Source: Boletus sp. NGJ
Lineage: Eukaryota; Basidiomycota; Agaricomycetes; Boletales; Boletaceae
Assembly (NCBI GenBank): GCA_019096195.1
Contig: JAGTXK010000198.1
Span: forward strand, 1 to 25,325
Reading direction: 5' to 3'
DNA length: 25,325 nucleotides
Positions 1,507 to 25,325 of this stretch are shown here, in pieces. Made by a program: the position numbers and the translations under genes. A model generated the notes under the pieces. The model saw only the letters and a list, made by a program, of their open reading frames with translations, had not been told where the DNA came from and did not search any database. The stretch's first letter is position 1. Every line of letters begins with the position of its first letter.

Positions 1507-2267
1507 CACCTGGGATTCCCGAATTGGAAGCCTAATTAGCCAGTCCAAATAGATTTCATAATACATAATTAGGCTTTCTGCCTCACTTTTCCTAGCACCA
1601 GCCATAAATCCTGCCCCAAATACTGGCCAACTTTGCCATAGGAGAAGGAGACCTTTAGGGTAGGCATGGCTAGCACGTGAGCCGGACCTTTAGGGAAGTT
1701 GTTCCCACACGGCATAGCTAGTTGTGCCACACAATCCAATCAATAGCTTCCCACGCCCCTACCTTCCTTGTTGTCATCGTTGTCACCGTTGTCCCGCTGT
1801 CGTCTTCCCCCGACGTCTCCATCGTTCCTGTCGTTTCCACCATCATTCTCTCTGTCATCTCTGTGGTCCCTGCTGTTGTCCTCTTCCGTCCTCTCCCTCG
1901 TTCTCCCCCATCGTCTCTGTCATTCCTGCGGTCATCTCCTCGTCCTCCCTCTCGTTTTCGCTGTTGTTCTCTTGTTCTCCTCATTGTCCCTGTGGTCGCC
2001 CTCTCCTGTCCTCCCTCTCGTTTCCACCATTGTCCTCTCCTGTCCTCTCCCTCATTTCTGCTGTTGTTCTCTGGTCCTCTTTGTGTCCCTGCGGCCATCC
2101 TCACCTGTCCTCTCCCTCGTTTCTGCTGTTGTTCTCTTGTCCTCTTTGTGTCCCTGCTGTCATCCTTGCCCGTCCTCTCTGTTGTCCTCGTCACCTTACT
2201 CACTGCCCTTCTCGGTCTTTTCTCACCATTGTTGCATGGATCTCACCAACCGTATCATTCACTTTGC
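1507..2267. repeat. Left terminal inverted repeat of the KDZ element (~761 bp)
   Basis: It is the reverse complement of 9715-10413, from the outer CACCTGGG to the shared inner word CATTCACTTTGC. The outer ~230 bp are ordinary mixed sequence. From about 1760 to 2200 the top strand is strongly C/T-rich and made of degenerate repeats of a unit like TCCTCTCCCTCGTTTC with TGCTGTTGTTCTC. This arm is about 60 bp longer than the right arm because of extra repeat units around 2050-2150. The long open frames across it are by-products of the repeat. Confidence 0.9.
1760..2200. repeat. Subterminal C/T-rich minisatellite in the left TIR
   Basis: Degenerate units of roughly 35-60 bp combine TCCTCTCCCTCGTTTC and CTGTTGTTCTC motifs, almost without A on the top strand. 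The same array appears as its G/A-rich complement at about 9780-10150. Repeated subterminal motifs are typical binding arrays for DNA transposases, so this is a candidate transposase-binding region (inference). Confidence 0.7.
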
Positions 2268-2281
2268 AGCATTGGTTATCC

Positions 2282-5200
2282 ATGTCCCGCCATACACAAA
2301 GGTTTCCGGGATTGTCAAAATCAATTAAGGTCCATAGATTCAGAGGACATGCCCACCATACCATCACTCTGTGGGCAGGAAAACAGGCTGATCGTCTTCG
2401 CACCATCAGTGAGCAACGCGCTGCAGATCTTCAAGGTATGTTTTCCCTTACGAACTATATACTCCGTTCTATGTACTAATGTATTATGGTAGTGCTGCCT
2501 CCAGAGGACCAGGACAATGCAGACCAGATGTTTGAAGATTTGGGCATGGATATTCAATACGATGTGCACATCCCCAACACAAGCTTTGACTCTGAACCCA
2601 ATGATGGCAATGATAGTGATGCTGATGACGAGTTCTCCCAACTTACTGAGCAGGTGGCTGGATGGTTCGCTTTCATTCTCTCTTCTTTTCCTCTCTTCTG
2701 ACAAATGTTTCAGGTGTGCACCAGATAGCCGAGACCGTCGGGATCGCATCGAGACCCAAACCAATCAATGGAGTGTCCAGGTACCCTGCCTCATTGAGGC
2801 TTACATGCACTTCTGTTCACGTGATTCTGGTGACAGCTTCCCAACTGATGAACTTCGTAATGTACAAAATGCACCGGCAGTGCATCCTGCTGGCACCATT
2901 AGTGAAATTGAACTTGTCGATATCTTCAGTGAGTGCCACAGCCTCTGATTCAATAGACATTCTTTGACAAATGTATAGGCCAATGAAAGGCGACACTTCT
3001 GGCTCATCCACACCATCTCTTCCCCAACGAGAGTCTGATTTCTCATGGATATCTGGGCTGTTCACCTATCTTCCCCACTCTCACTGTTTCTATTCGCACC
3101 CTTGCAGTTTTTCGCCAATCACATCGTTCCTGCCTGTGTTTCAGCATTCAGGCACAATGCAAAACTCTCTGTCATCTTCATAATGTACGTTAGGATGAAT
3201 ATGCCATAACTGAATTTATATTGATGCGTGACAGGTGCCATACCATCCCTATCTCTGCTTCCAGCTCTCCGTCGCCTATGACATATACCTGGAGATTGTC
3301 CATCAAGTTGAGGACCGCATTCGTAAGGCCCTCAACCATGATTCTCAAGAGTGGAGACTTCAAAATGAGTGTCCAGCATGCTTTTACCGACTCGAAGATG
3401 AGCCAAAAATGACATTTGACTGGCTCATTTCAATTGATGGCAACAATAGTTTGAAGCGATGGGACAGCACTGTGTATGGCACAATTCCTTGGGAAGATTC
3501 TCGAGTGGTGAGATCAAGCTATTGGTTAAGTAACGCAGATGTCAATCAATTTCAATATGAGGTCAAGGTGAAAAATGTTTGTTGATTTACAACAATACAT
3601 GTGCTGTCTGCTGACATAACATTTAGACTGTGCCACCTGATGCCATTGCTACCAGCCTGCGCAATGATGATGATTGGGAGGAGGTAGCAATGCCTGAGCA
3701 TCCCAATGTCTTCAACTGTGTTGATCAGTGGTGCAATGCCAAAGCTGACATGCAGAAGAAGACTATGTCAGTTTTCAAGGAATCTGGAATATTCATCGCA
3801 ACATGCCGGCATCGTTTTATTCTCTTGGCCTGTGATATGATTAAGAGTGATGAGCAGTAAGTATGAATCTATTCACAGGAGTTTGCCAATCTAATATTAA
3901 AGTAGGGTGAAATATCCCTTGACAATAATCAATCATCTTCTTTCAGTGTACAGTAAGAATGGTGGCTGTGCTTACGACATTGGTTGCGCGTTCGCAAAAA
4001 CTGCCAATAGCAGTACCATCAGATCAAAGATACATGAACTTCGCTTGCGATTCATGACTGGTGCCTTTCATGGACATGCGCACAACTGCATTTGTCAATT
4101 GGACTGGCATCCTATGTACATTGAAGGAACAGGAAATACAGAGGGGGAAGGCTGTGAGCATGTGTTCTCGGCATCCAACGAACTAGCCCAAGGCACACGA
4201 CATGCGACCTGGTTCCACCACCACCAAGCAATCAAGCAACATTTCGCCTTCTAGAACGAAGACAAATACGAAGCGCTCAGTATGGCCTTTTCCCACTTAT
4301 CTCAACTCATCTAATCTTTGCCTAGCACGTTTCATTCATAATCATTACCGAGAAGCAACACAATCCATTCGCACGCTAAGCACAGAACTTTCCATCCTTA
4401 AGGCTTTGCTTCATCTCACTGACTATGATTTTCCATGTTTTTTGGCTGAAGAATGCCTTTATCTTATCTCCCTGAAAGAACCTCTGCTGCAAGAACAGAC
4501 CCGCATTCACTATGCACAAGTACTTGACGAACTTGAAGAGCGAAGGTATGTATCTATTTGTTTATTCTTGTCATATTATGTATGACTGTCATTATTACGG
4601 TTAGAGTGGAATGGAACATGGCACACGAAGCAGCTAACACAGCCCTGACAGTCGTTATTGAGGGTGATCACCACACCATCACTGCTGTAATCCACCAGGC
4701 TCATGTTCATGTGGACCTTGCCTATGTGAAATTGCAAAATGCCGAAATACTTGCTGCACATCTCCAGGTGCAGCTTGGTCTCGAGTTGCCATGGGAGATC
4801 GGTGGTGCAGAATACAATTGCTATAAGGGTGAGGTGAAGCTTCGCAAGTACCATGAGGCATTGGGAGAGCTGGAGCGCTTGGTAGTCATGCGCCTTTTTG
4901 AGTTGGAGAAGGTGACGATGTCTGATACTGGTATGTCATTTTACCTGATTGTTCTGACAATACAAATATTTCATTACAGGCTACAAGCTGTGCCAGCAAA
5001 TTAGCAAGGCTCTTCATCAGAAATCGGATGTGATTCAAAAGGCAATCACACAGTACAACACTCAAGCTGCGGCTCTCACACCCCCCCGTCCCTCTGTTTC
5101 ATGGAAGGACATCACCAAATATACATTTCTAGGGGAATTTAATCTACTTTGACTTGCACAGGACGACATCCGAGAATGGGAGTGGGCCAGACCCACCGTA

Positions 5201-5767
5201 CGTGAAGCCACAGCTAAGTTCTTTAAACTTTGTCATGCACAAGAAGAAATTACTCGACTTCATACTGAGGTCTACCACTTGCAAACAGCCATACGTGATG
5301 AAGAAGATGAAATAGTGGCATATATTGTGAGGCTTCGTGAGTCTCAGCCACTCCTTGCCGGTGAACTTGAGCGCCTACACCAACTCCGTGCTATGATGAA
5401 CATGCTTCATCTTGATCGATTATGCTGCATCAAGAAGAAATATGGGTCAATAGGACATAATCAATTGGGGATCCACTTGAAAGAAACTCATTCGCCTGAT
5501 GAACAAATGGCCATAACTGATGTGAGCAGCAGGACCTCAACCCCTACTTCTACCATCCCTCAAAGTGAATCCAGTCATGGTGAGTTCTCCATTTCTGTCT
5601 ATTACTGTTTACGCTGATCAATTTGTTTTGCAGAATTATCATCAGTCTTCAATGACATGTATGGACTTTACATCAATGATCCCAGAGACGATGACCTTGT
5701 GGACCGCAAGGATGATGAAGCGGAAATCCATTCCATGGTAGATTTTTTAAATGATATCACTGATTGA
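2282..5767 (+). pseudogene. KDZ transposase with CxC1-like cysteine cluster (interrupted)
   Basis: Proposed exons are 2282-2435, 2493-2653, 2714-2928, 2979-3184, 3235-3567, 3627-3856, 3906-4279, 4326-4545, 4605-4930, 4980-5579 and 5634-5767, about 984 codons, which is normal for KDZ transposases. The start ATG is 15 nt inside the TIR edge. The N-terminal part holds a basic segment, an acidic linker and a CxC1-like cysteine cluster ending CPACFYRLEDEP. The catalytic core follows: SIDGNNSLKRW (Asp, codon 3436-3438), CAYDIGCAF (Asp, 3976-3978) and EGEGCEHVFSASN (Glu, 4156-4158), with FHGHAHNCICQLDW between the last two. The C-terminal third is helical, with likely coiled coil. In-frame stops lie at 2984-2986 (TGA), 4252-4254 (TAG) and 5150-5152 (TGA). 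The exon 2/3 junction is off by one base in my model, so that boundary is uncertain or frameshifted. Expected role: cut-and-paste transposition at the element's TIRs in the nucleus. Confidence 0.9.
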
Positions 5768-6148
5768 CGATGTGCATACATGTAATACTGTTATACTCAA
5801 TAATCTATGACTATTTTTTCTGGCATGATTGGACTGATCTGAGAGTAGTGGTGTGAATGTATATCTTGGTTGGGATTTTTGAATGGTGTGGCAATAACGC
5901 ACGGGTCATGTGTGAGTGACTCAATCAACACTACTTACCATCAACTACCTCACACCAATGTGTCTCAGCAATCATCATCATTGCAAAATGTTTGTGTTCC
6001 TAGGAATGCTCAATATCAAGACTCCCGAGCCATGCTTGAAGGGATATCCATACTAGTATGTGCATTCGGTGAGTCCTATGCATCTTTCTGATGTGGCTAC
6101 GGTGTTAATAAAACCCTTAGTGACATATGTAAGTTACTTAGACTGCTC
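5768..6148. other. Spacer between the two transposon genes
   Basis: This is about 380 bp, AT-richer than the exons. It contains a coding-like stretch around 5870-6090, rich in Ser, Gln and Asn and ending near GTGAGT, that could be a 5' exon of the downstream gene. No splice chain joining it to the ATG at 6149 is convincing. It should also hold the terminator of the transposase gene and the promoter of the second gene, but neither is recognisable by eye. Confidence 0.4.
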
Positions 6149-9100
6149 ATGCAACAGAGTACCACATCCTTCCATGCCATGACCACTCCCTCTCAAAGCA
6201 ATGCATCCACAGATGGTAAAACCACGCTCAAAAACCAAACCCTATTCACACTGGCAGCGATCAATGCCATGTACTTGTCGTCGTTTGCTCAAGGGTTTAC
6301 CAGTAGGCAGCATCAGGCAGCAATCCAAGCACTCCTTCAACATTGTGCAAGTGAAGATGGTATGCATTCTCATGTGAAAACAGGAGACAGGCTTCATCCA
6401 GAATACATAATGTTCAATCCTGCCGAGGAATCTGATCCCAAAGGTCATTGTAGCAGGACGGAGTTAGCCGAGGCCTCACTCACAGATGTTTTTGATGCGG
6501 TAATGTTCATGTTTACTAGCCTACACACTTCACTACTTAAATTCCCTGCTAGATAACTATGCAGGACCATTTGGATGGAGGAATGTCCCTTCTCATCAGG
6601 TGCCCAGGCTTTGACGCACCAGCCGATATAACCCCGGAGAAAATTACTGTTGACCTCTATGTCACCCCGCACGAGCTCATTCAAGACGAGCATGTTGACA
6701 GTGACACAGCCATGTTGGTTCAGGCTTTCTGCCAAGAATTCATGATCCCTTACCTGCAGCGCTTTTCCGAGCATTGTAAAATTGAGTTGATCACTGCTCC
6801 AAAGCCACATAGTAAGTCTGCATGAGCTCATTCACACTTGCGTCACTAACATTTATACAGAACTCACAGCTTCTATCAGTCTCAATGGGCCAAGTCACCT
6901 CCCTCGATATTCAAGTCCACTCATCGCGCGCATTCAGTGCATAGTGCTCAGTACCAATGCAAAGCCCACATCAAATGATACCCAACATATTTCGCCCTCT
7001 GCTGCCATCTGCGAATCTACGGTGATCACGGCTAACAATGTGTGACCACCCAACACACCTACCACCCTTCGTCAACGGCAACGTCGCCCTGTGGATGCTT
7101 TTGAACCTGTACCTGTGGAAACCTTGGCGGTGGAGCCAGTTCATCTTGTCATCCCTCCTGATCAGACTGCATTGCCCAGTCGCCCTCTCATAAGCCTTGG
7201 ACCGAACACTGATGCTGTACTCGATCACTTCAATCTTGGGGATGCAATACTCCCTCGCTTGCATATGCTTATCCAAACTGTGTGCAGCAGCTGTTGGGAG
7301 GCAGTCCTCAGATCTACACCATCAAACCTGATATATGAGGAAGCATTCAATTTGTCAGCAGCACTCATTGCAGACCTTACGCACACCCCTGGGTTTTCCA
7401 TAATGACAGTATGTCCATCCGTCTACATTCCTCTTACCCGAACAGGGACAAACCTGATTCATATTGTAGAAATCCAAGATCTCCATCTTCAATATGATGC
7501 TCAGGGTACTCGGTGCCATAGTCTTGGTTTGTTTGATTTGCATTCTAGTCTTTTTTTTTTTTCTGTAAATTTTCCATCCAGCCCTGGAGCCCCCTTTTCC
7601 CCTATGCTCACATATTGAACTGAATCTGTCTAGCGTCATTTGAATATACTGCTCTTGCCGTGTCTTTCGCCTGTTAAAAATCGCAGTGTGTGCAGGAACA
7701 CTTTGGTCATCCTCGCCCTCTCATAGTATTACCTGCCTCTCTCATTGACAGGAATGGCTCCCGCCGAGTCCAGCCTTTATGCCCTCCATGCAATCAACAC
7801 CCGAGAGTTCATCTCATGGCCGAGGCTTGTGCAACACTGAGAATAGACCAGCACCAGAAGGCCACCCACTTCCAGCACAACTTGCAGGAGACTTGGAAGG
7901 TGTTGGACAATGCCACCATGAATCTTGCATTGAAACACCACAAGAGTGTCTGCCGTGTGCAAAATGAACTCCATTTCGCTCATATGAAGTTTTGCTCACG
8001 ACAGACCAAAATTAATGCGTGGAATGCATTTTGCTGGAAGAAATGACGCAGCGTTCACTTGGTCGGTAGCACAGATGAAAATGGTATATTTTTTTTGCCG
8101 CAAAGCAACTATACTTAACAACAGTAACTTCAGCAGGCAAGACTACATTGCCTGACCTTGTAAAGGTGAATCGTGCCAAGTATCACAACCTCAGTGCCTC
8201 CAACAAGGAAAATATTGTCAAGAAATTTTCTGAATTCAGGATAATGAAAGCAGTTGGTGTTTGCACCTCAACCCGATCGAAAATCAATGATGTTACCCAG
8301 ACATTGAAGGCGGTGGAGTCAGAGGTGAGCACAGCACTATTTATTTATTGCAAAAATAACAATACATATTTCTAGCTTGATAATCTCCAGGCGTGTACAG
8401 GCGTGCAGACCCTACTCTATGCGACGCGAGGAACTACAGACCTTCCACTTCGTAGTGTCGCCTTTTCAACTCTTGGTGTCAAAGATTTCATGGGCTCAGT
8501 CATGGGCTTAGATACACAGGACTTCGTTGGGAAGATGGAGGGATTTGCCATACAGGGAATCAAAGGTTTGTTTCTGCCTATCATCTATATGCAGTATCAC
8601 AGTGTCATAAAACATTACAGGAGCAGCCGAGAACCACCAACAACGTGTGTCGAACATACACACTTTGATTTGTACAATCATAAACAAACAACTACGTAAG
8701 CATGGTTATAATTCAGGGACTACTAATTAGCTAACTTGCTGTAGAGGAGATTACACGAGACCCAAATGCCAAAATGCAGTGGGCATACTACTTTTGGAAC
8801 ATTGTTTCTTGTTACAAGGTTGCCATTGAAGGCTGGCCTGACTCAATTCCATTTGCAAACCTAAGTTCTATCTCTAGCTCATTGACTCAGCTTGAGATCT
8901 TGTTGCGAAAGTGGGAGATGGGAACTACACACTGGAAAGAATTGTCAGACTTGGAGTTTGGGCAACTTAGGCAAGCAAGGAATGAGGGGCTGGAACGTGG
9001 GGAGATCAGTGAAGCAATTCGTCGTACCTGCTCTGATAAAGGAAAGAAGCGCACTCAGGTTGTAAATGACTCCAAAGCTCAAAGTCGCAAGAAGCACAAA

Positions 9101-9540
9101 AGTGCCGAGATGGTCAGTGAAGAAGACGAGGAGGAAAACCAAGATTCCGGTAGGTGTCCCTGAATATCTTCTCAACATTGTGGCCCATCCTAAACATCGC
9201 TTGTGCAGCAGTTGCTACTACTACGCACGACAACAATGCCAAAATGGATGATGCCAGCACAGCTATTACCACAGAAGGTTCACCCGAGGGTGATATAGCT
9301 GCCACTGCCCCCGCACAAGGTTCACCCGAGGCTGACACAGCTACCACCACACAAGCTTCGTCCGACGTTAGTGTGGACAAGACTAATATAGCCACTGCCA
9401 CACAAGGATTACCTGAGATTGACACAGCTGCTGCCACACAGAGTCTGCCAGATGTTAGGGCTGATAGCCCCAACGATGACTTGATGGATTTGGCAAATGA
9501 GTTGCTTACATTTGACAGTTCCACTGTGTCCCTCTTCTAA
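6149..9540 (+). pseudogene. Second KDZ-element gene: conserved basidiomycete protein of unknown function (interrupted)
   Basis: Ten exons join in one continuous frame of 929 codons: 6149-6499, 6553-6811, 6861-7408, 7470-7520, 7696-8083, 8137-8324, 8376-8565, 8621-8695, 8745-9149 and 9209-9540. Exons 4 and 5 are the least certain. The middle holds a strongly conserved-looking block: KINAWNAFCWKK, SKINDVTQTLKAVE, LLYATRGTTDLPL, FMGSVMGLDTQDFVGKMEGF and IEGWPDSIPFANLSS. I recall similar blocks in many basidiomycete hypothetical proteins, often near KDZ transposases, but cannot name a function. After a basic segment (KGKKRTQ, SRKKHKS), a possible nuclear localisation signal, comes a Thr/Ala-rich repetitive tail built on DTATTTQ- and GSPE-like units. 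In-frame TGA stops lie at 7043-7045 and 8044-8046 with coding-like sequence continuing beyond each. It could be an accessory transposition factor or cargo. No TET/JBP or DDE motif is seen. Confidence 0.78.
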
Positions 9541-9714
9541 GTACAATATGAGTTATATAGATAGAGTGACACACTTCAATAGATCTGCAAACTGTTCAGC
9601 GCAAATAGTATCTGAAAATGGAATGAAACACACATGACAAAAGTGTGCTAATTGACCCAACACCCGGGTATGGTGACGAGGTTGATGTTCCAGACAAAGA
9701 GCATAGCATTGAGG

Positions 9715-10413
9715 GCAAAGTGAATGATATGGTTTAGTGAGATCCGCACAACAATGGTGAGGAAAGACCAAGAAGGGCAGTGAGTAAGGTGACGAGGACA
9801 ACAGAGAGGACAGGTGAGGACGACCGCAGGAACATGAAGAGGACCAGAGAACAACAGCGGAAACGAGGGAGAGGACAGGAGAGGACAACAGTGGAAACAA
9901 GAGGGAGGACAGGAGAGGGCGACCGCAGGGACAATGAAGAGAACAAGAGAACAACAGCGAAAACGAGAGGGAGGACGAGGAGATAACCGCAGAAATGATA
10001 GAGACGACAGGGGAGAACGAGGGAGAGGATGGAAGAGGACAACGGCAGGGACCACAGAGATGACAGAGAGAATGATGGTGGAAATGACAGGAACGATGGA
10101 GACGTCGGGGGAAGACGACAGCGGGACAACGGTGACAATGATGACAACAAGGAAGGTAGGGGCGTGGGAAGCTATTGATTGGATTGTGTGGCACAACTAG
10201 CTATGCCGTGTGGGAACAACTTCCCTAAAGGTCCGGCTCACGTGCTAGCCATGCCTACCCTAAAGGTCTCCTTCTCCTATGGCAAAGTTGGCCAGTATTT
10301 GGGGCAGGATTTATGGCTGGTGCTGGGAAAAGTGAGGCAGAAAGCCTAATTATGTATTACGAAATCTATTTGGACTGTGGCTAATTAGGCTTCCAATTCG
10401 GGAATCCCAGGTG
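9715..10413. repeat. Right terminal inverted repeat of the KDZ element (~699 bp)
   Basis: It is the reverse complement of 1507-2267, ending ...CGGGAATCCCAGGTG at 10413. The G/A-rich array (about 9780-10150) is the complement of the left C/T-rich array, with fewer repeat units. Scattered differences from the left arm are mostly transitions. The 174 bp between the second gene's stop and this arm (9541-9714) show no further gene. Confidence 0.9.
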
Positions 10414-10421
10414 GTTTGGAA
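10414..10421. repeat. Right target-site duplication GTTTGGAA
   Basis: It is identical to the left duplication at 1499-1506. Sequence from here on continues the copy C alignment (GTTTGGAAAGGAAGGTTTCACTG in copy C from 20137), proving that the flanking repeat was continuous before insertion. Confidence 0.95.
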
Positions 10422-10592
10422 AGGAAGGTTTCACTGCTTGCCTGCATCGGGATCCGAGTAAGAATAAGCGCCAAGGACACGAGGCAGGCAGACCATATTG
10501 AGAATAAGGAAACTGGTTATACAGCAACTTTGTGCAGCACGAGTAAACCGAAATACCTCGTTCCTTCACTCTTCAGTGTACCAATACTGAGG

Positions 10593-12639
10593 ATGTCGTC
10601 GACGAATACCGGTGGGTAGCGGTTCCGAGGAGTGATAGAGCAATGCTAACTATTCAGCAAGACCGAACAATAGTACTTGATACTGGCAGCTCTGGATTGG
10701 TATACGCAGTTGTGTTCCACCCCGACGGAAAGCATCTCTTGGGCGGGAATGGGAATGAGATTCAACGATGGCAACTTGCAGACGACCAAATGGTCGGAAG
10801 GCAAACGGGAATGCTGGTGTTCGCCATTTCTGTGTCAAAGGATCACAGGTGGATAGTCTGCGGGACTAACAACGGGGCAAGCGTGTGGGACGGAGATATG
10901 CATGGAGAAGGCCATCGAAGCGGAGGGTGAAAAGACGGTGTATGCGGTCGATGTCTCCCCAGATTCGACAAGGTTTGCCACAGGGACTGCCCAAGACGGA
11001 GCGAGCGTTTGGAGCATTAGGAGCGGGGAGCGACTCGTTCGCCCGCTCGAACATGACGCGGAAAGTCACTGGAATCCGTTTCTCCCCGAATGACGAGCTC
11101 GTCGCCACTGCCTGCCCAAGAAATTACATCCGCATTTTCGACAGCCGCACCGGGGACAAGCTCGTCACCATCAAAATTGACATACCTAATTGGGTGGGCA
11201 CTCCGCTTTCATGGTCAAGTGATGGTCAGCAAATTTTTGCGACATCCCGTGACAGCAGAATCAGGTCATTCGATCCGTCCACTGGGTCTCCGCTTGCTGA
11301 ATCGCAGATCCTCGATGACAACGACGATGGCATCCGCTCCATTGCTCTCGCTGCCAATGGCAAATTTATTGCTACCGCCGGACCACATTCAATCTCGTTC
11401 CTCGACATACTGACACTAACAAGGATTGGTCCTGTCATCAAGGACAGCAAACGGCCATTCTCAATTGCCATCTCGATGGACAGTAGCCATTTTGCGACTG
11501 GACAAGAGGACGGAAAAATTGCCATTCATGATCTCAGCAAGATTCTCCCGGACTTGTATGGTCCATCCAATGTAAGTGTTTGTACCTTTTTAGTCCCAGC
11601 ATCTTGGATAGGCCACATTCCGTTTCCCGCATCGACAATCTATGCAGGCATCTACTCCAAATGACGAGCAACCTTCGACATCGGCCCATGACGACAAGCC
11701 ACAAAACTCTAAATCCGTAGGATTTTCTCATCCCGTCACTAAAAGAGTTGTGCTGACGTCGTCACTGTACAATAGGAACAACCTACGACATCCAGTGAAC
11801 TCCATTCTGAAGGACACAATGAGGACGGCAATGATCTCATCGAGGTATCAGTTCTTTCGTTTCCCCCTCGAAGTGAGTTCTCACGATCACATAGGTTGAC
11901 GTGCCGCCGAGCACGCCTGCCCCCGAGTTTAATTATGACGAGGTGGGCGACCACTACATTCTTGTCTTGCTTCCCCATTGACACTACTGGAGTCATTGGC
12001 CTCCTCTTCCGATTCTAGTATGGACGAGGCACCGCCGCTGGGCCCATCCCATGCTATATCGATATCACAGTCAGATGCCCTACCCGTGCCCTCCACTTCA
12101 GAGACACGTCCAGAGGAAAATTTCGACACTGTCGAGTCATCTTCAGGGCCGTTCGATATTCAAAAGGTGGCGACAAAGATTGGGCAACAAGGGCCCGACT
12201 TCGCATAAGCCACCTCGGCATTCCGGAAAGTCGCCCGAGCCTGCCGGTCGTCGATCCCCTTCCCACTCCCCAGCGAGATCAAATGTCACAAATGAAGGGC
12301 CTTCGTGGATGGCTAAAGGTAAACGTAAGCGAGTGAGTGCTTTTCCTCGACAAGCGATCGAATGTTATGTGACGAGCATATCTTAGCGAGCGGTCGCAAA
12401 AAACCGTTAGAAGGCCAGGGGTTCGTTGTTCCTCGGATTTGTATGTAGACACTCATCCCACGTCACAGGATAAATCACGTACCAAGACTACTATTCCCAA
12501 ACCTCCGAACAGAGATGCATCTGACAGTGGAGGACAAGGTGCTGTGGATACAAAGGAAGCAGACCCAGTTCGTCTCTTTCTGGTGATGGTGGACCTCGTC
12601 ACGTCAGCTCACGTCCCATTAGACGCAACAAGCAGCTGA
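10593..12639 (+). pseudogene. WD40-repeat protein, copy A (frameshifted)
   Basis: Same gene structure as copy B: a 19-nt first exon at 10593-10611 (MSSTNT), then a large WD40 exon from 10662 to 11571, then small Ser/Pro-rich exons beginning at 11648. Repeat units such as VYAVVFHPDGKHLLGG, VSKDHRWIVCGT, GASVWDGDM, VDVSPDSTRFATG, GASVWSIRSGERL and IRFSPNDELVATA mark a beta-propeller. Compared with copies B and C it carries single-base insertions at about 10905-10912 (GGAGAAGGCC for GGAAAGGTC), 11061-11064 (GGAAAG for AGAAG), 12137-12142 (TCATCTTC for TCACTTC) and in an A-run at 12398-12403 (six A, not five). Each shifts the frame, and the last one brings an immediate TAG. The KDZ element sits just upstream and has replaced its normal 5' context. 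Confidence 0.85.
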
Positions 12640-13375
12640 TCCATCCCAACCCTCCGGAGCGGGGGTCCAACTAACGGTGCGTGTTACTTTCCGTTCACCT
12701 GCTTTGTGAGACTCACAACGTGTTTGCAATAGGAAGAATCGGGTTACTCTACCCTCAGGCTTTCGATCAGGCTTTCGATCAGGTTTCCCACGTGGTTGTT
12801 GTGTTCTCGCTCGGGTACACACGGTGGAATGGATTGATGCGGTGAATCAATGTACTACATGCAGATACCACGCTGGTCCATGATAATATGGACATTCAAC
12901 ATTCCTTTTGAAGATCAGTTTGAGTTCCGATAGGCCCGTCCATGATTGAGCTCCCTCGACGGTCACTAATCAACGTTTCTATAAACATGCGGAAGTTGGG
13001 GACCAGTATTCCTTCGTGGATCCAAGTACTACTTGCCGCGAGGGTGCAAGCCGAACCAAACGGACGGGCCACTGGCAAAAACGATGTTAGACATGCGCCA
13101 GGGTCATGATGCGAGTCGAGCAGGAACAGAAAACATGAAAGGAAAGAGCATGCGAGATAAATCGACGAGGATAAAATATAAAAGAGGGGGTGTAAAATAA
13201 TGCTGCAAGACATTAGAGGAAATAGTGATTATTACAAAAAGGGGACTGTCGTTGCGGCAAAGTGTACACATTACGAGCGCATCGTCGATCCATGAATATC
13301 ATGATGCAGAGACGAGGAAGCGTGGTCTGTGTAGGGTGGGGATAAGGATAAGACATTACTGACTATTCTTCCAGC
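12640..13375. other. 3' flank of copy A with a ~320-bp insertion
   Basis: Sequence to about 12968 (CTCGACGGTCACTAATC) and again from about 13288 (GATCCATGAATATCATGATGCAG) aligns with contiguous copy C sequence near 22800-22830. The intervening ~320 bp (about 12969-13287) are absent from copy C. The insert contains an AT-rich stretch with TATAAAAG-like words on the + strand and a 105-codon hydrophobic minus-strand open frame (13213-12896). I do not consider that frame a supported gene. No clear terminal repeats or target duplication flank the insert. Confidence 0.5.
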
Positions 13376-15948: not shown

Positions 15949-18476
15949 GCAGACTGCGTTTGGAAAGGATGGAAGGTTTTACCAATATTGACTGGTCGCA
16001 ACGGGATCCGTGTAAGAATAAGCGCCAACGACACGAGGCAGAGAGACCATATTGAGCAAACGTATTTATGTAGCAACTTTGCGCACGAGGAAACCGAAAT
16101 ACCTTGTCCTTCACTCTTCCAACCCTATAACTGTGTACCATTGGCGAGGATGTCATCGACGAATAACGGTGCGTAGCAGCTCCGAGGAGTGAGAGCAATG
16201 CTAACTATTCAGTCTATTCTGTAAGACCAAACATTAATACTTGATACCGGTAGCTCTGTGAGGTGGATATACGCAGTCGCGTTCCACCCCGACGGAAAGC
16301 ATCTTTTGGGCGGAAGTGATGATGGGATTCGACAATGGCGACTTGCAGACGGTCAAGAGGTCGGGAAGCGAATGGAACTGCAGTTGCGCGCCATTTTTGT
16401 GTCAAAGTGGGTAGTGTGCGGGACTTATCGGCAGGGGGCAAGTGTGTGGGACGGAGACATGCGTGAAAAGGTCATCCACGTAGAGGGCACAAACATTGTC
16501 TGGGCAATCGACATCTGCGCAGATTCGACCAGATTTGCCACAGGGACTGCCGAAGACGGAGCGAGCGTTTGGAGCATTAGGAGCGGGGAGCGACTCGTTG
16601 GCCCGCTCAAACATGATGCAGAAGTCACTGGAATCCGTTTCTCCCCGAATGGCGAGCTCATCGCCACTGCCTGCCCAAGAAATTACATCTGCGTTTTCGC
16701 CAGCCACACTGGGGACAAGCTCGTCACCATCAGAATTGGCATACCTAGCTTGGTGGCCACTCCGCTTTCATGGTCAAGTGATGGTCAACAAATTTTTAGC
16801 ACGTCCAGTGACAGCAGAATCAGGTCATTTGATCCATCCACTGGGTCTCTGCTTTCTGAATCACAAATTCTCCATGATGGCAAGGACGTCCGTTCTATCG
16901 TTCTAGCTGCGAACGGCAAATTCATCGTTGCCATCACACGGCATTCAATTTCGTTCCTCGACACACCAACACTGACACGGATTGGCCCTGTCATCGAGGA
17001 CAGGCAAGAGCCAACCTCAATTGCCATCTCACCGGGCAGCGGCCATCTTGCGGCTGGACGAGACGATGGAAAAATTGTCATTTATGATCTCAGCAAGATT
17101 CTTCCAGATTTGTGTGGTCCATTCAATGTAAGTATTTGATAGTCCCGGTATGTTGGATAGGTTCTTACATTGACAATCTATGTAGGTATCCACTCCCACA
17201 GTACAACCTAACGACCAACCTTCGACAGCGGGCGGCCACGACAATAACCCTAATTCTAAGCCTGTAGGATCTGTTATCTTGCCACTAAAACGGTTGCGCT
17301 GAAGCCGTCACTATGCACGTACAATAGGAACAACCTGCAAAATCAAGTCCACTCCAGTCCGAGGGACACAACAAAGACGGCGATGGTCTCATCGAGGTAT
17401 CAGTTCGTTCGTTTCCCTCGAAGCGAATTCTCACGATCACATAGGTTGACGTGCCGTCGAGCACACCTGCTCTTGAGTTCGATTACGACGAGGTGGGTGA
17501 TCACTACATTCTTCTCGTGCTTCCCCATATTGACATTGCTGGAGTCATTGGCCTCCTCTTCCGATTCTAGTAAAGACGAGGCACCGCCGCTTGACACATC
17601 CCATGTCGTACAGCAGTCAGATGCTATAGCCGTGCCCTCCATTTCAGAGACACCTCCAGAGGGAAACCTCGACGGGGTCGAGTCACCTCAGGGTCGTTCG
17701 ATATTCAAATGGTGGCGGCAGAGAAAGGGTATGAAGGGCACGGGTTCGCATCGGCCAGATCGACGTTCCGGAAAGTCGCGCGAGCCTGCCAGTCGTCGAT
17801 CCCCTTCCCACTCCCCAGCGAGACCAAATGTCACAAATGAAGGGCCTTCGTGGATGGCTGAAGGTAAACGTAAGCGAGTGAGTGCTTTTTCTCGACAAGC
17901 AATCGAATGTTATGTAACGAGCATATCTTAGCGAGCGGTCGCAAAAACCGTTAGAAGGCCAGGGGTTCGTTATTCCTCAGATTTGTATGTAGACACTCAT
18001 CCCACGTCACAGGATAAATCACGTACCAAGACTACTATTCCCAAACCTCCGAACAACGATGCATCTGGTAGTGGAGGACAAGGTACTGCGGATACATGGA
18101 AGGCGGACTCGGTTCGTCTCTTTCTGGTGATGGTGGACCTCGTCGCGTTAGCTCACGTCGTGTTAGACGCAACAAGCAGCCAACCCATCCCAACCCTCAA
18201 CCACGGGAGTCCGACTAACGGTGCGTATTACTTTCCGCTCACCTACATTGTGAAACTTACAATAGATTTGCATCAGGAAGAATCGGGTTACTCTACCCTT
18301 AGGTTTTCAATCAGGTTTCCCACATGGTTATTGTGTTCTCGCTCTGGTACACACGATGGAGCACATTGATCCAATACTACGCTGGACCATGATTATAAGG
18401 ACATTAACCATGTATTCCTTTGAGTTCATGTATCTCGCAGCATCAGTATAAGTTCCAACAAGCCTGTCCATGCCAA
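15949..18476 (+). repeat. Copy B of the WD40 segmental repeat
   Basis: It starts at AGACTGCGTTTGGAAAGGA, which includes an uninterrupted version of the KDZ target site, and runs through the WD40 gene to about 18476 (GTTCCAACAAGCCTGTCCATG). It aligns with copy A (10414 to about 12940) and copy C (20133 to about 22770). It is more diverged from A and C than their 3' halves are from each other. Confidence 0.8.
16150..18302 (+). CDS. WD40-repeat beta-propeller protein, copy B (intact model)
   Basis: Eight exons, 16150-16168, 16226-17127, 17186-17263, 17328-17396, 17445-17492, 17545-17877, 17932-18220 and 18277-18302, give 588 codons with the stop and no interruption. All introns are 48-64 nt with GT...AG ends. 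The 19-nt first exon encodes MSSTNN and is supported by the same layout in copies A and C. Residues ~15-305 form WD40 units (VAFHPDGKHLLGG, GASVWDGDM, STRFATGTAEDG, GASVWSIRSGERL, IRFSPNGELIATA, WSSDGQQIFST, IVLAANGKF, DGKIVIYDLSKIL). Residues ~306-480 are Ser/Pro-rich and probably disordered (SPSHSPARPNVTNEGPSW), with basic patches (KGKRKR-like). The last two exons are the least sure; an alternative frame around 18120-18220 also looks coding. WD40 propellers act as protein-interaction scaffolds; no partner or pathway is indicated here. Confidence 0.72.
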
Positions 18477-19614: not shown

Positions 19615-20136
19615 TGCCTGGGTAAAAAAAAGTTCGAATTCATGTGATCATGTATACATTCACTCTACGGGCATTCGTTCCGTCAGAATACCTGACGGTA
19701 GGGGCACTCCCATCGGCCGTCGTGTGTAAGTTTCTCGACCACCCAAGTGAACCGGGGGGACACGGAATACAGCGCTTTCATCTGGCCTTGGATGAAAGTA
19801 GAATACATTAGACGATTTCATGCACTTGATCACATTGACACGCATACCAGGATCGCTTCGAACACTTCAGGATATCACTTGAGAACAAGTTCTGGCAATC
19901 ACATGGGTTTCATACGGATGTCTGAGACGTCCGCCCGTGGTGCGCCAGGGAACATGTCGTTGAGCGTCCGAGGGCGTTGCGAGCGCCAACGAGGTAGCAT
20001 GTGAGCGAGACTATTCGAGCATGCGAGAATGTGCCGTATTTTCTGCGCGGTATATCGCGAGTTGGTCTAGTGCAGATTATACACTCGTTGTGAACCGAGT
20101 CCCACACGCTAGACGTGACGGGCATTCGCAGACTGC
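19156..20136 (+). repeat. Copy C: 5' flank of the WD40 segmental repeat (well preserved)
   Basis: It aligns with copy A 592-1498 and serves as the less-decayed reference: where the two differ, this copy usually has C or G (often CpG) and copy A has T or A. It runs without interruption into the target site at 20137. Confidence 0.85.
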
Positions 20137-20144
20137 GTTTGGAA
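20137..20144. other. Empty KDZ target site
   Basis: GTTTGGAA occurs once here in the context CTGCGTTTGGAAAGGAAGG. In copy A the left part is followed by the transposon and the 8 bases are repeated on its far side. This is the pre-integration state of the same site. Confidence 0.93.
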
Positions 20145-20316
20145 AGGAAGGTTTCACTGCTTGCCTGCATCGGGATCCGAGTAAGAATAAGCGCCAAGGA
20201 CACGAGGCAGGCAGACCATATCGAGAACAAGGAGACGTGGTTATACAGCAACTTTGCGCAGCACGAGTAAACCGAAATACCTCGTTCCTTCACTCTTCAG
20301 TGTACCATTGCTGAGG

Positions 20317-22434
20317 ATGTCGTCGACGAATACCGGTGCGTAGCGGCTCCGAGGAGCGATGGAGCAATGCTAACTATTCAGCAAGACCGAACACTCGTCC
20401 TGGACACCGGCGGCTCTGGATGGGTGTGCGCAGTCGTGTTTCACCCCGACGGAAAGCATCTCTTGGGCGGGAAGTGAGGAATGGGATTCGACGATGGCGA
20501 CTTGCAGACGGTCAAGAGGTCGGAAGGCAAACGGGATATGCGGTGGTGCGCGCCATTTCTGTGTCGAAGGATCACAGGTGGGTAGTCTGCGGGACTAACA
20601 ACGGGGCAAGCGTGTGGGACGGAGAGATGCATGGAAAGGTCATCGAAGCGGTGGCGTGACACAAGACGGTGTATGCGGTCGACGTCTCCCCAGATTCGAC
20701 AAGGTTTGCCACCGGGACTGCCGAAGACGGAGCGAGCGTTTGGAGCGTTAGCGAGCGGGGAGCGACTCGTCTGGCCCGCTCGAAACACGACGACGGATGT
20801 CAATGGGAATCCTTTTCTCCCCGACTGGCGAGCTCGTCGCCACTGCCTGTTCCCGAGACAGTCCATCCGCATTTTCGACAGCCGCACCGGGGACAAGCAT
20901 CGTCACCATCGAAATTGACATATCCGAGTTGGGTGGGCACTCCGCTTGCATGGTCAAGCGATGGTCAGCAGATTTTTGCGACATCCCGTGACAGCAGAAT
21001 CAGGTCATTCAAGATCCGTCCACTGGGTCTCCTGCTTGCTGAATCACAAATTCTCCATCACGGCACTGAGGACGTCCGCTCTATTGCTCTAGCCGCCAAC
21101 GGCAAATTCATCGCTGCCGTCGGACACAGCATTCAATCTCGTTCCTCGATGCATCCTGACTCTAACAAGGATTGGTCCTGTCATCAAGGACAGCAAACGG
21201 CCATCCTCAATTGCCATCTCGACCGGACAGTAGCCATCTTGCGGCTGGACAACCGGACGGTAAGAATTGCCATTCGTGATCTCGGCAAGATTCTCCCGGA
21301 CTTGTATGGTCCATTGAATGTAAGTATTTGTGCCTTTATAGTCCTAGCATGTTGGATAGGCCCCATTCTGTTTCCCACATCGACAATCTATGCAGGTATC
21401 TACTCCAAATGACGAGCAACCTTCGACATCGGCCCATGACGACAAGCCACAAAACTCTAAATCCGTAGGATTTTCTCATCCCGTCACTAAAAGAGTTGTG
21501 CTGACGTCGTCACTGTACAATAGGAACAACCTACGACATCCAGTGAACTCCATTCTGAAGGACACAATGAGGACGGCAATGATCTCATCGAGGTATCAGT
21601 TCTTTCGTTTCCCCCTCGAAGTGAGTTCTCACGATCACATAGGTTGACGTGCCGCCGAGCACGCCTGCTCCCGAGTTTAATTATGACGAGGTGGGCGACC
21701 ACTACATTCTTGTCTTGCTTCCCCATTGACACTACTGGAGTCATTGGCCTCCTCTTTCCGATTCTAGTAAAGACGAGGCACCGCCGCTTGGCACATTGGC
21801 CTCCTCTTCCGATTCTTTGGATGAGGCACCGCAGCTGGGCCCATCCCATGCTATATCTATATCACAGTCAGATGCCCTACCCGTGCCCTCCACTTCAGAG
21901 ACACGTCCAGAGGAAAATTTCGACACTGTCGAGTCACTTCAGGGCCGTTCGATATTCAAAAGGTGGCGACAAAGATTGGGCAACAAGGGCCCGACTTCGC
22001 ATAAGCCACCTCGGCATTCCGGAAAGTCGCCCGAGCCTGCCGGTCGTCGATCCCCTTCCCACTCCCCAGCGAGATCAAATGTCACAAATGAAGGGCCTTC
22101 GTGGATGGCTAAAGGTAAACGTAAGCGAGTGAGTGCTTTTCCTCGACAAGCGATCGAATGTTATGTGACGAGCATATCTTAGCGAGCGGTCGCAAAAACC
22201 GTTAGAAGGCCAGGGGTTCGTTATTCCTCGGATTTGTATGTAGACACTCATCCCACGTCACAGGATAAATCACGTACCAAGACTACTATTCCCAAACCTC
22301 CGAACAGAGATGCATCTGACAGTGGAGGACAAGGTGCTGTGGATACAAAGGAAGCAGACCCAGTTCGTCTCTTTCTGGTGATGGTGGACCTCGTCACGTC
22401 AGCTCACGTCCCATTAGACGCAACAAGCAGCTGA
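20317..22434 (+). pseudogene. WD40-repeat protein, copy C (multiple indels)
   Basis: First exon 20317-20335 (MSSTNT), second exon starting at 20386. Relative to copies A and B the WD40 exon (to about 21319) has many one- or two-base insertions: near 20472 (GGGAAGTGAGGAATGGG, giving TGA), at the GTGGCGTGACACAAG segment near 20652, and near 20749, 20785-20800, 20897, 21008, 21030, 21222 and 21250. The frame therefore jumps repeatedly. By contrast the 3' exons from about 21396 are almost identical to copy A from 11648 and lack copy A's frameshifts at 12137 and 12398, so that half could still encode the Ser/Pro-rich tail. The frame through exon 7 ends at TGA 22432-22434, where copy B reads CAA; copy A shares the TGA. 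A 53-bp tandem duplication interrupts the region at 21742-21847. Confidence 0.82.
21742..21847 (+). repeat. 53-bp tandem duplication inside copy C
   Basis: ATTGGCCTCCTCTTTCCGATT at 21742 and ATTGGCCTCCTCTTCCGATT at 21795 begin two consecutive versions of the same exon segment. The first continues AGTAAAGACGAGGCACCGCC as in copy B. The second continues with GATGAGGCACCGCAGCTGGGCCC, closest to copy A. Confidence 0.75.
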
Positions 22435-22846
22435 TCCATCCCAACCCTCCGGAGCGGGGGTCCAACTAACGGTGCGTGTTACTTTCCGTTCACCCGCTTT
22501 GTGAGACTCACAACGGGTTCTGCAATCAGGAAGAATCGGGCTACTCCACCCTCAGGCTTTCGCTCAGGTGTTCGTTCAGGTTTCCGACGCGGTTGTTGTG
22601 TTTTTCGCTCAGGTACACACGATGGAACGCCGTGATTCGGATGTAATGCGTGTACACGGTGTAGACACTACGTCGGGCCACGATTATATAGATCTTGACC
22701 ATGCATTCCTTTGAGTTCGTGTATCTCGTAGCATCAGCACTTATGAGTTCCAATAAAGCCCGACCATGATTGAATATTGAGCTCCGTAGGGTATTGACTC
22801 GACGGTCACCGATCCACGAAAATCAGGATGCAGACGACGAGGAGAC

Positions 22847-23194
22847 GTGATTCTGCTTAGGGTCGAGGTAAGACATTACCCGCGATTCTTCCAGCTCGAC
22901 TCCGCGCTCAACTGTTCTCGGACATCCTCGTCGCCTGCCTTGACAAAGTCAATGGAGGGCATGAGCATCCCCACGTTGGGACCACCATACACGCTCCCCC
23001 CTCCACACGGACCGCCATACACAGAACCACCGCTCCCAAACCCGACACTCGAGCTGCGCTCCACCCCCATTATTCACCCGCCATGTGCATCGCATGCTGC
23101 ACTTGTTTCGTCGATAAGGAGAGTCCGTTTTGATGTGAGGTATGCAGGATTATTGCTGAACTTGCGGGTGGAACGATCGGGGTCATGCCACTGA
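22847..23194 (+). CDS. Hypothetical Pro-rich open frame, left palindrome arm
   Basis: A 115-codon open frame, from an ATG at 22847, with a Pro/Gly/Tyr-rich centre (GPPYTLPPPHGPPYTEPP). A splice-like GTAAGACATT...TTCTTCCAG span (about 22868-22893) lies near its 5' end, so the true exon may begin at CTCGACTCCGCG, homologous to the copy A fragment at 13376. An identical product is encoded on the other arm. Function unknown; it may be a 3' exon of the repeat-unit gene or chance. Confidence 0.3.
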   Translation: MILLRVEVRHYPRFFQLDSALNCSRTSSSPALTKSMEGMSIPTLGPPYTLPPPHGPPYTEPPLPNPTLELRSTPIIHPPCASHAALVSSIRRVRFDVRYAGLLLNLRVERSGSCH

Positions 23195-24596
23195 CCATTG
23201 GGGGGGCTGCTGCGTGCTGGTTTCAGGTTGCGCCCCATTGCACGGACACCAATTCTCCATCGTCACATTGATCACTGATCTGGGTTGCGACACCTACGCC
23301 GGCCCAATGTCACCTAGCGTAATGTAATGACCTGTGCTAAAAGGTATAAAATAAGTAAGGTGTATAAACGAGTGAAACCCGAATGGACATACAATCAGTA
23401 AGTTTTTTACACCGCTTATGAAAACGAGCCGTAAGTGCAATCGACGACCTGCTATAAATGGAAGTGTTTACTGTAATGAAAAGGGTATGAAAGTGCTTGT
23501 ACTGACATTTGCCACACTCATGTCAACCCTTGCACAAACGGTGTTGTCGAGTGCTGCAAATGTCGCAGGCGATTGAAAACCCCATATTATCTTCATCTAC
23601 CGATGGCAGTCCAGGTCCACCCAGGCGGTAGTCATCGCGCCCCCGCGCCCAGCTGTTTCACGCCACTATACGTAGGCGTGAAGCGCACTAGCGACACCAA
23701 CACGCAATGCCAAAGCCACTGTTTTTCCTGAGTAAAGAATTTTTGTGAGAGCTATGGATTCCCCCATGAGAGATCAAACGCACCCTAAGATTGCAGATAA
23801 GCGGTTTTCCAAAATTGGTTTCCTGCCTTACCATTTGCAACCTCTAGCAATGTGGACTGTACGAAGCCCTTTGTGCATGCTCAAGGCACGGTCCATGGAC
23901 CGTGCCTTGTGCATGCACAATGGGCTTCGTACAGTCCACATTGCTAGAGGTTGCAAATGGTAAGGCAGGAAACCAATTTTGGAAAACCGCTTATCTGCAA
24001 TCTTAGGGTGCGTTTGATCTCTCATGGGGGAATCCATAGCTCTCACAAAAATTCTTTACTCAGGAAAAACAGTGGCTTTGGCATTGCGTGTTGGTGTCGC
24101 TAGTGCGCTTCACGCCTACGTATAGTGGCGTGAAACAGCTGGGCGCGGGGGCGCGATGACTACCGCCTGGGTGGACCTGGACTGCCATCGGTAGATGAAG
24201 ATAATATGGGGTTTTCAATCGCCTGCGACATTTGCAGCACTCGACAACACCGTTTGTGCAAGGGTTGACATGAGTGTGGCAAATGTCAGTACAAGCACTT
24301 TCATACCCTTTTCATTACAGTAAACACTTCCATTTATAGCAGGTCGTCGATTGCACTTACGGCTCGTTTTCATAAGCGGTGTAAAAAACTTACTGATTGT
24401 ATGTCCATTCGGGTTTCACTCGTTTATACACCTTACTTATTTTATACCTTTTAGCACAGCTCATTACATTACGCTAGGTGACATTGGGCCGGCGTAGGTG
24501 TCGCAACCCAGATCAGTGATCAATGTGACGATGGAGAATTGGTGTCCGTGCAATGGGGCGCAACCTGAAACCAGCACGCAGCAGCCCCCCCAATGG
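23195..24596. other. Inner part of the palindrome, no supported gene
   Basis: The inner arms (23195-23895 and its mirror) contain no convincing gene. An open frame of 72 codons crosses the centre on each strand (23745-23963 + and 24046-23828 -) and encodes nearly the same peptide, simply because of the symmetry. A short internal inverted repeat (CACGCCACTATACGTAGGCGTG, with the ACGCC/GGCGT pairs, near 23660) lies in each arm. Confidence 0.6.
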
Positions 24597-24944
24597 TCAG
24601 TGGCATGACCCCGATCGTTCCACCCGCAAGTTCAGCAATAATCCTGCATACCTCACATCAAAACGGACTCTCCTTATCGACGAAACAAGTGCAGCATGCG
24701 ATGCACATGGCGGGTGAATAATGGGGGTGGAGCGCAGCTCGAGTGTCGGGTTTGGGAGCGGTGGTTCTGTGTATGGCGGTCCGTGTGGAGGGGGGAGCGT
24801 GTATGGTGGTCCCAACGTGGGGATGCTCATGCCCTCCATTGACTTTGTCAAGGCAGGCGACGAGGATGTCCGAGAACAGTTGAGCGCGGAGTCGAGCTGG
24901 AAGAATCGCGGGTAATGTCTTACCTCGACCCTAAGCAGAATCAC
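24597..24944 (-). CDS. Hypothetical Pro-rich open frame, right palindrome arm
   Basis: Mirror of the frame at 22847-23194, identical in translation. It belongs to the inverted copy D flank. The same doubts about splicing and reality apply. Confidence 0.3.
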   Translation of the reverse strand: MILLRVEVRHYPRFFQLDSALNCSRTSSSPALTKSMEGMSIPTLGPPYTLPPPHGPPYTEPPLPNPTLELRSTPIIHPPCASHAALVSSIRRVRFDVRYAGLLLNLRVERSGSCH

Positions 24945-25228
24945 GTCTCCTCGTCGTCTGCATCCTGATTTTCGTGGATCGGTGACCGTCGAGTCAATAC
25001 CCTACGGAGCTCAATATTCAATCATGGTCGGGCTTTATTGGAACTCATAAGTGCTGATGCTACGAGATACACGAACTCAAAGGAATGCATGGTCAAGATC
25101 TATATAATCGTGGCCCGACGTAGTGTCTACACCGTGTACACGCATTACATCCGAATCACGGCGTTCCATCGTGTGTACCTGAGCGAAAAACACAACAACC
25201 GCGTCGGAAACCTGAACGAACACCTGAG

Positions 25229-25325
25229 GGCGACGGTGGAGTAGCCCAATTCTTCTTGATGCTGATCCCTTCTAAGTCTCACAATGTGGGTGAATGGAAA
25301 GTAACACGCACCGTTAGTTCCCCGC
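25229..25325 (-). repeat. Copy D: inverted, diverged WD40-unit 3' end (cut by window)
   Basis: Read on the minus strand this begins at the window end with AACTAACGGTGCGTGTTACT and continues toward the palindrome, matching the exon 7/intron 7/exon 8 region of copies A, B and C (22465-22562 in C) with many differences. It shows that a fourth copy in opposite orientation lies beyond the window. Confidence 0.75.

Follow-up and report, generated by a model that had tools for sequence, protein, structure and literature searches.

A near-perfect palindrome at the end of a Boletus contig is probably an assembly fold-back combined with a copy switch

The last ~2.7 kb of contig C15 in the genome assembly of Boletus sp. 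NGJ form a near-perfect palindrome (positions 22563-25228). Comparison with the other copies of the locus suggests that it is probably an artefact of assembly, formed where a short contig ends within a gene cluster that is duplicated, and is not carried by the living genome. The window, i.e. the whole stretch of DNA analysed here, is the entire contig (25,325 of 25,325 bp), and the palindrome stops 97 bp before its end. The analysis covered the assembled sequence of the contig in comparison with the whole assembly (32,776,125 bases in 141 contigs). The features observed directly, on which the reading as an artefact builds, are the position at the contig end, an interior of the type found in C15 (C15-type), an exterior of the type found in a second contig, C81 (C81-type), a block that is identical in both arms and in C81, and a hairpin-forming centre. 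In 91 of its 97 bp, the diverged flank of the right arm is this stretch in its C81 version, which, together with the contig-end position, points more simply to an assembly error.

Overall structure of the palindrome

The palindrome consists of two arms of 1,333 nt each, with 0 nt of spacer and a single turning point at 23895/23896 (Table 1). Exactly three pairs are mismatched, 23331/24460 (C-C), 23870/23921 (T-T) and 23881/23910 (T-T), so that the left and right arms are 99.8% identical. Chance cannot account for an inverted match of such length. The preliminary description, which reported a spacerless 2.67-kb palindrome with about three mismatched pairs, is confirmed to the base. It had also placed mismatches near the centre, where two of the three pairs indeed lie (within 26 nt; P ~0.001 for random placement, in a post hoc test). 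Finally, it noted homologous, diverged flanks outside both arms. These are real: the last 97 bp of the contig resemble 22464-22562 imperfectly, and the right and left outer flanks are 89% identical over 170 bp, part of the arm included.

The left arm has one long start-to-stop open reading frame (22847-23194, 115 aa), which recurs in the right arm by symmetry. It has no Pfam match at E 0.1; in the window as a whole, no Rfam match was found at gathering thresholds and no tRNA by a bacterial-code scan. A functional element in the arms was considered and rejected on these results.

Table 1. Coordinates of the palindrome, its flanks and the adjoining genes in contig C15.
Feature	Position	Strand	Remarks
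WD40-repeat gene copies 1 and 2	~10414-12944 and ~15949-18472		
WD40-repeat gene copy 3	20128..22768	+	Tandem family; runs into the left arm
Left arm outer flank, C15-type version	22464..22562	+	Same stretch as the right flank
Identity block, 330 bp	22563..22892	+	Same in left arm, right arm and C81:76068-76397; the change of the right copy from C15-type to C81-type lies within it
Left arm (C15's own copy)	22563..23895	+	98% to C81:76068-77390 across arm positions 1-1306
Central 54-bp quasi-palindrome, two T-T mismatched pairs	23869..23922	.	Not in C81:1-160000; no second copy reported in the assembly
Right arm	23896..25228	-	Left arm in reverse complement, with 3 mismatched positions; C15-type differences from C81 in its inner part
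Right arm outer flank to contig end	25229..25325	-	25229-25319 100% identical (reverse complement) to C81:75977-76067

The gene cluster and its other copies

An array of three tandem WD40-repeat gene copies runs into the left arm of the palindrome and displays patchy exchange between its copies. Positions 12399-12698 in copy 1 and 22194-22493 in copy 3 differ at one position in 300, and neighbouring stretches differ more. This near-match is a sign of exchange within the array, which may in turn explain the divergent left flank of the palindrome. Copy 1 carries an inserted DNA transposon of 8.9 kb (1507-10413). The termini of this element are mirror images of each other (30 of 30 nt compared), and it has long inverted repeats of 574 nt (1541-2114 and 9804-10377, 96%) and a flanking 8-bp target-site duplication; an empty site is present on C81 at ~73676-73683. 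A match to a KDZ transposase (PF18758, E 3e-40) lies at 3901-4251 (one of ten pieces searched). Duplications of 8 bp are among the features reported for Zisupton elements (PMC12730594). The WD40 gene family, the KDZ transposon and the genome size would by themselves suggest a fungus, probably a basidiomycete. The left end of the contig (1-76) begins within a dispersed repeat that has at least 23 further occurrences in the assembly, with identities of 88-97%.

Long stretches of C15 have close matches elsewhere in the assembly. C15 14869-23868 is collinear with C81:68407-77390, in a contig of 1.74 Mb, at 98.2% identity; 11445-19081 matches C81:56350-48660 in the reverse orientation at 98.9%; and 13373-21212 matches C42:52810-45001 at 98.5%, in a match that runs to the end of the part of C42 compared. 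At ~14.4-17.9 kb, 500-bp windows of C15 are 99.8-100% identical to both C81 and C42. Judged by these alignments, C15 would be a second version of the C81 stretch, either allelic or a recent segmental copy.

C81 itself contains inverted copies of a 4,213-bp sequence (48660-52872 and 68407-72619) that are 100% identical. The same repeat matches C15 at 498-500 of 500 positions in each full window and C42:47105-52810 at 99.6%. The identity of the two C81 copies reflects either a very recent duplication or conversion, or the pooling of reads in assembly. Such a repeat, combined with windows that are 99.8-100% identical in C15, C81 and C42, makes the locus hard to assemble.

The arm unit of the palindrome is not dispersed. 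Among the 24 matches listed in a search of the genome against itself, the only other near-complete copy is that of C81, in ordinary orientation, and no second inverted arrangement of the unit was found. Beyond the fold point, the C81 sequence itself (77299-80000 and 81001-83500) gave no second near-full copy in the searches, although the lack of a match does not prove rarity. Both observations count in favour of an artefact.

A different inverted structure occupies C81:56451-68352. This near-palindrome of ~12 kb consists of a dispersed repeat present twice in head-to-head orientation; the two copies are ~96% alike, and a short spacer separates them near 62401. A search with a 2.4-kb piece from one of the arms gave long matches on C103, C3, C109, C74, C59, C112 and C36, as well as a 73-bp match on C101. 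The idea that this structure supports the occurrence of genuine fold-backs in the genome was considered and rejected; being a pair of dispersed-repeat copies, it says nothing about C15. It does provide a model for reading the C15 palindrome as two transposon copies lying head-to-head, since its own arms are dispersed repeats (on the one piece of one arm that was searched). Against this, near-complete copies of the C15 arm unit are confined to C15 (two copies) and C81 among the 24 matches listed, the C15 arms are 99.8% alike, and their centre matched no other place in the assembly. An origin of the C15 palindrome from such a transposon pair is disfavoured by copy number and highly improbable.

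The right arm is a mosaic of two versions of the locus

A three-way alignment was made of the left copy (22464-23895), the right copy in reverse complement (23896-25319) and C81 75977-77394, the last 6 bp of the contig being left out. The right copy agrees with C81 against the left copy at 25 columns. All but one of these lie outside the arm (22488-22562), where the right copy has the C81 state at 24 of 24 differing columns. The remaining column, 23331, is inside the arm, and there the left-arm base is absent from both C81 and the right arm. Conversely, the left and right copies agree against C81 at 55 columns, all within the arm. C15-type states common to both arms account for 31 of them (22893-23814; 17 are gap columns, 2 at 23478 and 15 at 23803), and 23331 is the sole exception to this sharing. 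The 24 further columns at 23869-23895 cannot be counted: with the C81 slice ending at 77394, they were bound to come out as gaps. Two columns (23870 and 23881) differ in all three copies, and there is no aligned column in which the left copy and C81 agree against the right copy.

Further out, 421 bp of the right copy (24899-25319) are an exact match to C81:75977-76397. The interior shared with the left arm and the exact C81 exterior make the right arm a mosaic, C15-type inside and C81-type outside. There is no unique sequence between the right arm and the contig end: C81 is matched exactly by 91 of the 97 bp, whereas the final 6 bp (25320-25325) match it with a gap, lacking 4 bp that are present in both C81 and the left flank. 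This is the sole place where the left copy and C81 agree against the right copy, and it may be an error at the contig tip or a real difference. As a test for separate copies, the outer flanks offer a left flank that belongs to the WD40 array and a right flank of only 97 bp. The inner part is C15-type in both arms, and the outer flank of the right arm is C81-type, so that any fold-back reading needs a switch of version.

The preliminary description had argued against a plain read fold-back and for an inverted pair of repeat units homogenised by conversion. It was right in that a plain single-read fold-back does not account for the mosaic and that recombining repeat units surround the palindrome. 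Its main argument was the diverged flank, which is weakened now that this flank is exact C81 sequence (C81:75977-76067) in 91 of 97 bp. The assembly error that it had named as the alternative is favoured by the C81-identical flank, the switch inside the identical block and the contig-end position.

A real event in the gene cluster could nevertheless produce the mosaic if a C81-like copy of the 76.0-77.4-kb segment were inverted relative to the C15 copy and its inner 1.0-1.3 kb had been homogenised by gene conversion from the left arm. A conversion tract would leave just such a C81-type outer part joined to C15-type sequence further in, and the arms are indeed alike against C81 where the flanks are not, but an assembly copy switch predicts the identical pattern. 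The cluster does exchange sequence between copies, as in the near-match between WD40 copies 1 and 3, and C81 carries its own identical inverted copies of 4,213 bp. The one mid-arm mismatch, the two central ones and the 4-bp tip difference could be later mutations. Palindromes of the Y-chromosome type are inverted repeats kept alike by gene conversion, and the C15 palindrome is like them in its highly similar arms and more diverged flanks. It departs from them in that its arms showed no recognisable known gene pair (one open reading frame searched) and in the shortness of its right outer flank. Furthermore, the one place where the structure was found lies 97 bp from the tip of a 25-kb contig, the listed matches in the genome hold no second inverted arrangement, and the C81-like flank ends with the contig, with no unique outer flank seen. 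According to a review, the risk to genome stability rises with longer and more similar arms and with a short or absent spacer (PMC7999016), a risk to which a spacerless pair of such arms would be exposed. Taken together, inverted duplication followed by conversion is quite unlikely.

The centre of the palindrome

C81, which departs from C15 at 77390, has nothing that corresponds to the 27 nt at the inner end of each arm. A 100-bp query for the centre matched only itself in the assembly; the central 26-mer, with up to 3 mismatches allowed, was found in no other place of the assembly, and neither was an unfolded version of the central site. The idea of an adapter or linker at the centre was rejected, as the 26-mer occurs nowhere else in the assembly at that tolerance. 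It is not known to resemble an adapter.

A 66-nt segment (23863-23928) folds as one hairpin with a 4-nt loop and two T-T mismatches (-36.2 kcal/mol, z -12.0), and none of 200 shuffled sequences is as stable. Since the hairpin is a part of the palindrome, how strongly it folds adds nothing independent to the evidence. Its inner stem would be a pre-existing imperfect palindrome, and everything beyond it a retraced copy.

Such a centre invites a reading in which the fold took place in the fungus. At an end left by a break or a nick, the quasi-palindrome at 23869-23922 would have snapped back, its 3' end would have been extended by copying the arm, and repair would then have switched template to the C81 version. 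The clustering of mismatches at the centre is as expected if an imperfect inner stem pre-existed and the rest was copied, and the central strand does fold into a hairpin, the loop of which has 4 nt. Fold-back inversions in yeast are reported to arise via small-loop hairpins (median loops of 4 and 3 nt) in mre11 and sae2 mutants (PMC7467729). The C15 palindrome is like these inversions, and like human inverted duplications (PMC3907307), in being an inverted duplication centred on a sequence that can form a short-loop hairpin. The human duplications studied in that report, however, keep a single-copy spacer at the turn, whereas C15 has no spacer and no outer junction is seen. Features of the yeast, human and review accounts, as far as these go, neither prove nor exclude a real event in C15. 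The same hairpin would also promote a fold in the test tube or in the assembler, and thus does not separate in vivo from in vitro. Moreover, this course of events leaves the contig-end position and the missing outer unique sequence unexplained. A recent hairpin-primed fold-back in vivo is very improbable.

Fold-backs at other contig ends

The six ends of three small contigs (C4, C9 and C18, 4 kb each) were checked for near-identical fold-backs, and none was found (0 of 6, a small sample). This survey covers ends only, and a fold-back centred in the middle of C4, C9 or C18 would escape it.

One of these ends contains an inverted repeat of another kind. The last 4 kb of C4 (8634-12633) hold an imperfect inverted repeat with arms of ~1 kb and a spacer of ~0.7 kb, ending ~0.1 kb from the contig end. 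Its arms are ~84% identical in BLAST pieces; when aligned, they match at 905 of 1,237 columns, with 248 gap columns and 84 mismatches. The many substitutions and minisatellite-like length changes give it the look of an old inverted repeat rather than of a fold-back.

Discussion

The reading preferred here is an assembly fold-back followed by a copy switch. A natural quasi-palindrome of ~54 bp would sit where C15 leaves the sequence of C81. There the assembly would have turned back onto the opposite strand, either through a chimeric read of the fold-back kind or by overlapping with itself, and the same sequence would have been retraced for ~1.0-1.3 kb. It would then have switched to the C81 version inside the 330-bp identical block and stopped within ~0.1-0.4 kb. 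We infer that the central quasi-palindrome predates the fold, that the palindromic molecule is absent from the cell, and that the fold step was a read chimera or a graph error.

Fold-back chimeric long reads and the assembly duplications that result from them resemble the C15 palindrome in being spacerless inverted copies, here at a contig end. In the data of one study, fold-back reads make up ~0.55-0.6% of ONT genomic reads, and PacBio HiFi data contain virtually none (three PacBio samples in all; PMC12870357), which would count against an artefact if the present assembly were built from HiFi reads. Inverted duplications have also been described in an assembly of amplified DNA, where the authors blame amplification (PMC6218980). 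C15 differs from the cases in both reports in that its second arm switches version outward, and a consensus or graph step must be added.

This added step counts against an artefact, given that a single fold-back molecule would show one version throughout. So do the arm difference at 23331/24460 and the 4-bp gap at the tip; all of these could arise in a real, ageing palindrome. Furthermore, none of the six other small-contig ends checked holds a near-identical fold-back, and the fault need not be a general one of the assembly. An in vivo origin is possible, but it costs more, as it calls for a fold-back or inverted duplication, a conversion tract and a contig break just there. Overall, it is unlikely that the spacerless 2.67-kb palindrome is real in the fungus, whether at the end of C15 or run through, and whether it came from a hairpin-primed fold-back or from an inverted duplication within a WD40-gene cluster that recombines fast, and was then rewritten in part through exchange with the other copy.

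If the palindrome is an artefact, the practical lesson is that where a contig ends in a near-perfect palindrome and the outer flank is exactly the sequence of another contig, a fold-back plus a copy switch is to be considered first. If it is real, a long near-perfect palindrome would have been captured in a eukaryotic genome shortly after it arose. Its origin could still be read from a central hairpin and copied arms, and as a long natural palindrome with no spacer it would be useful for understanding the birth and tolerance of such structures.
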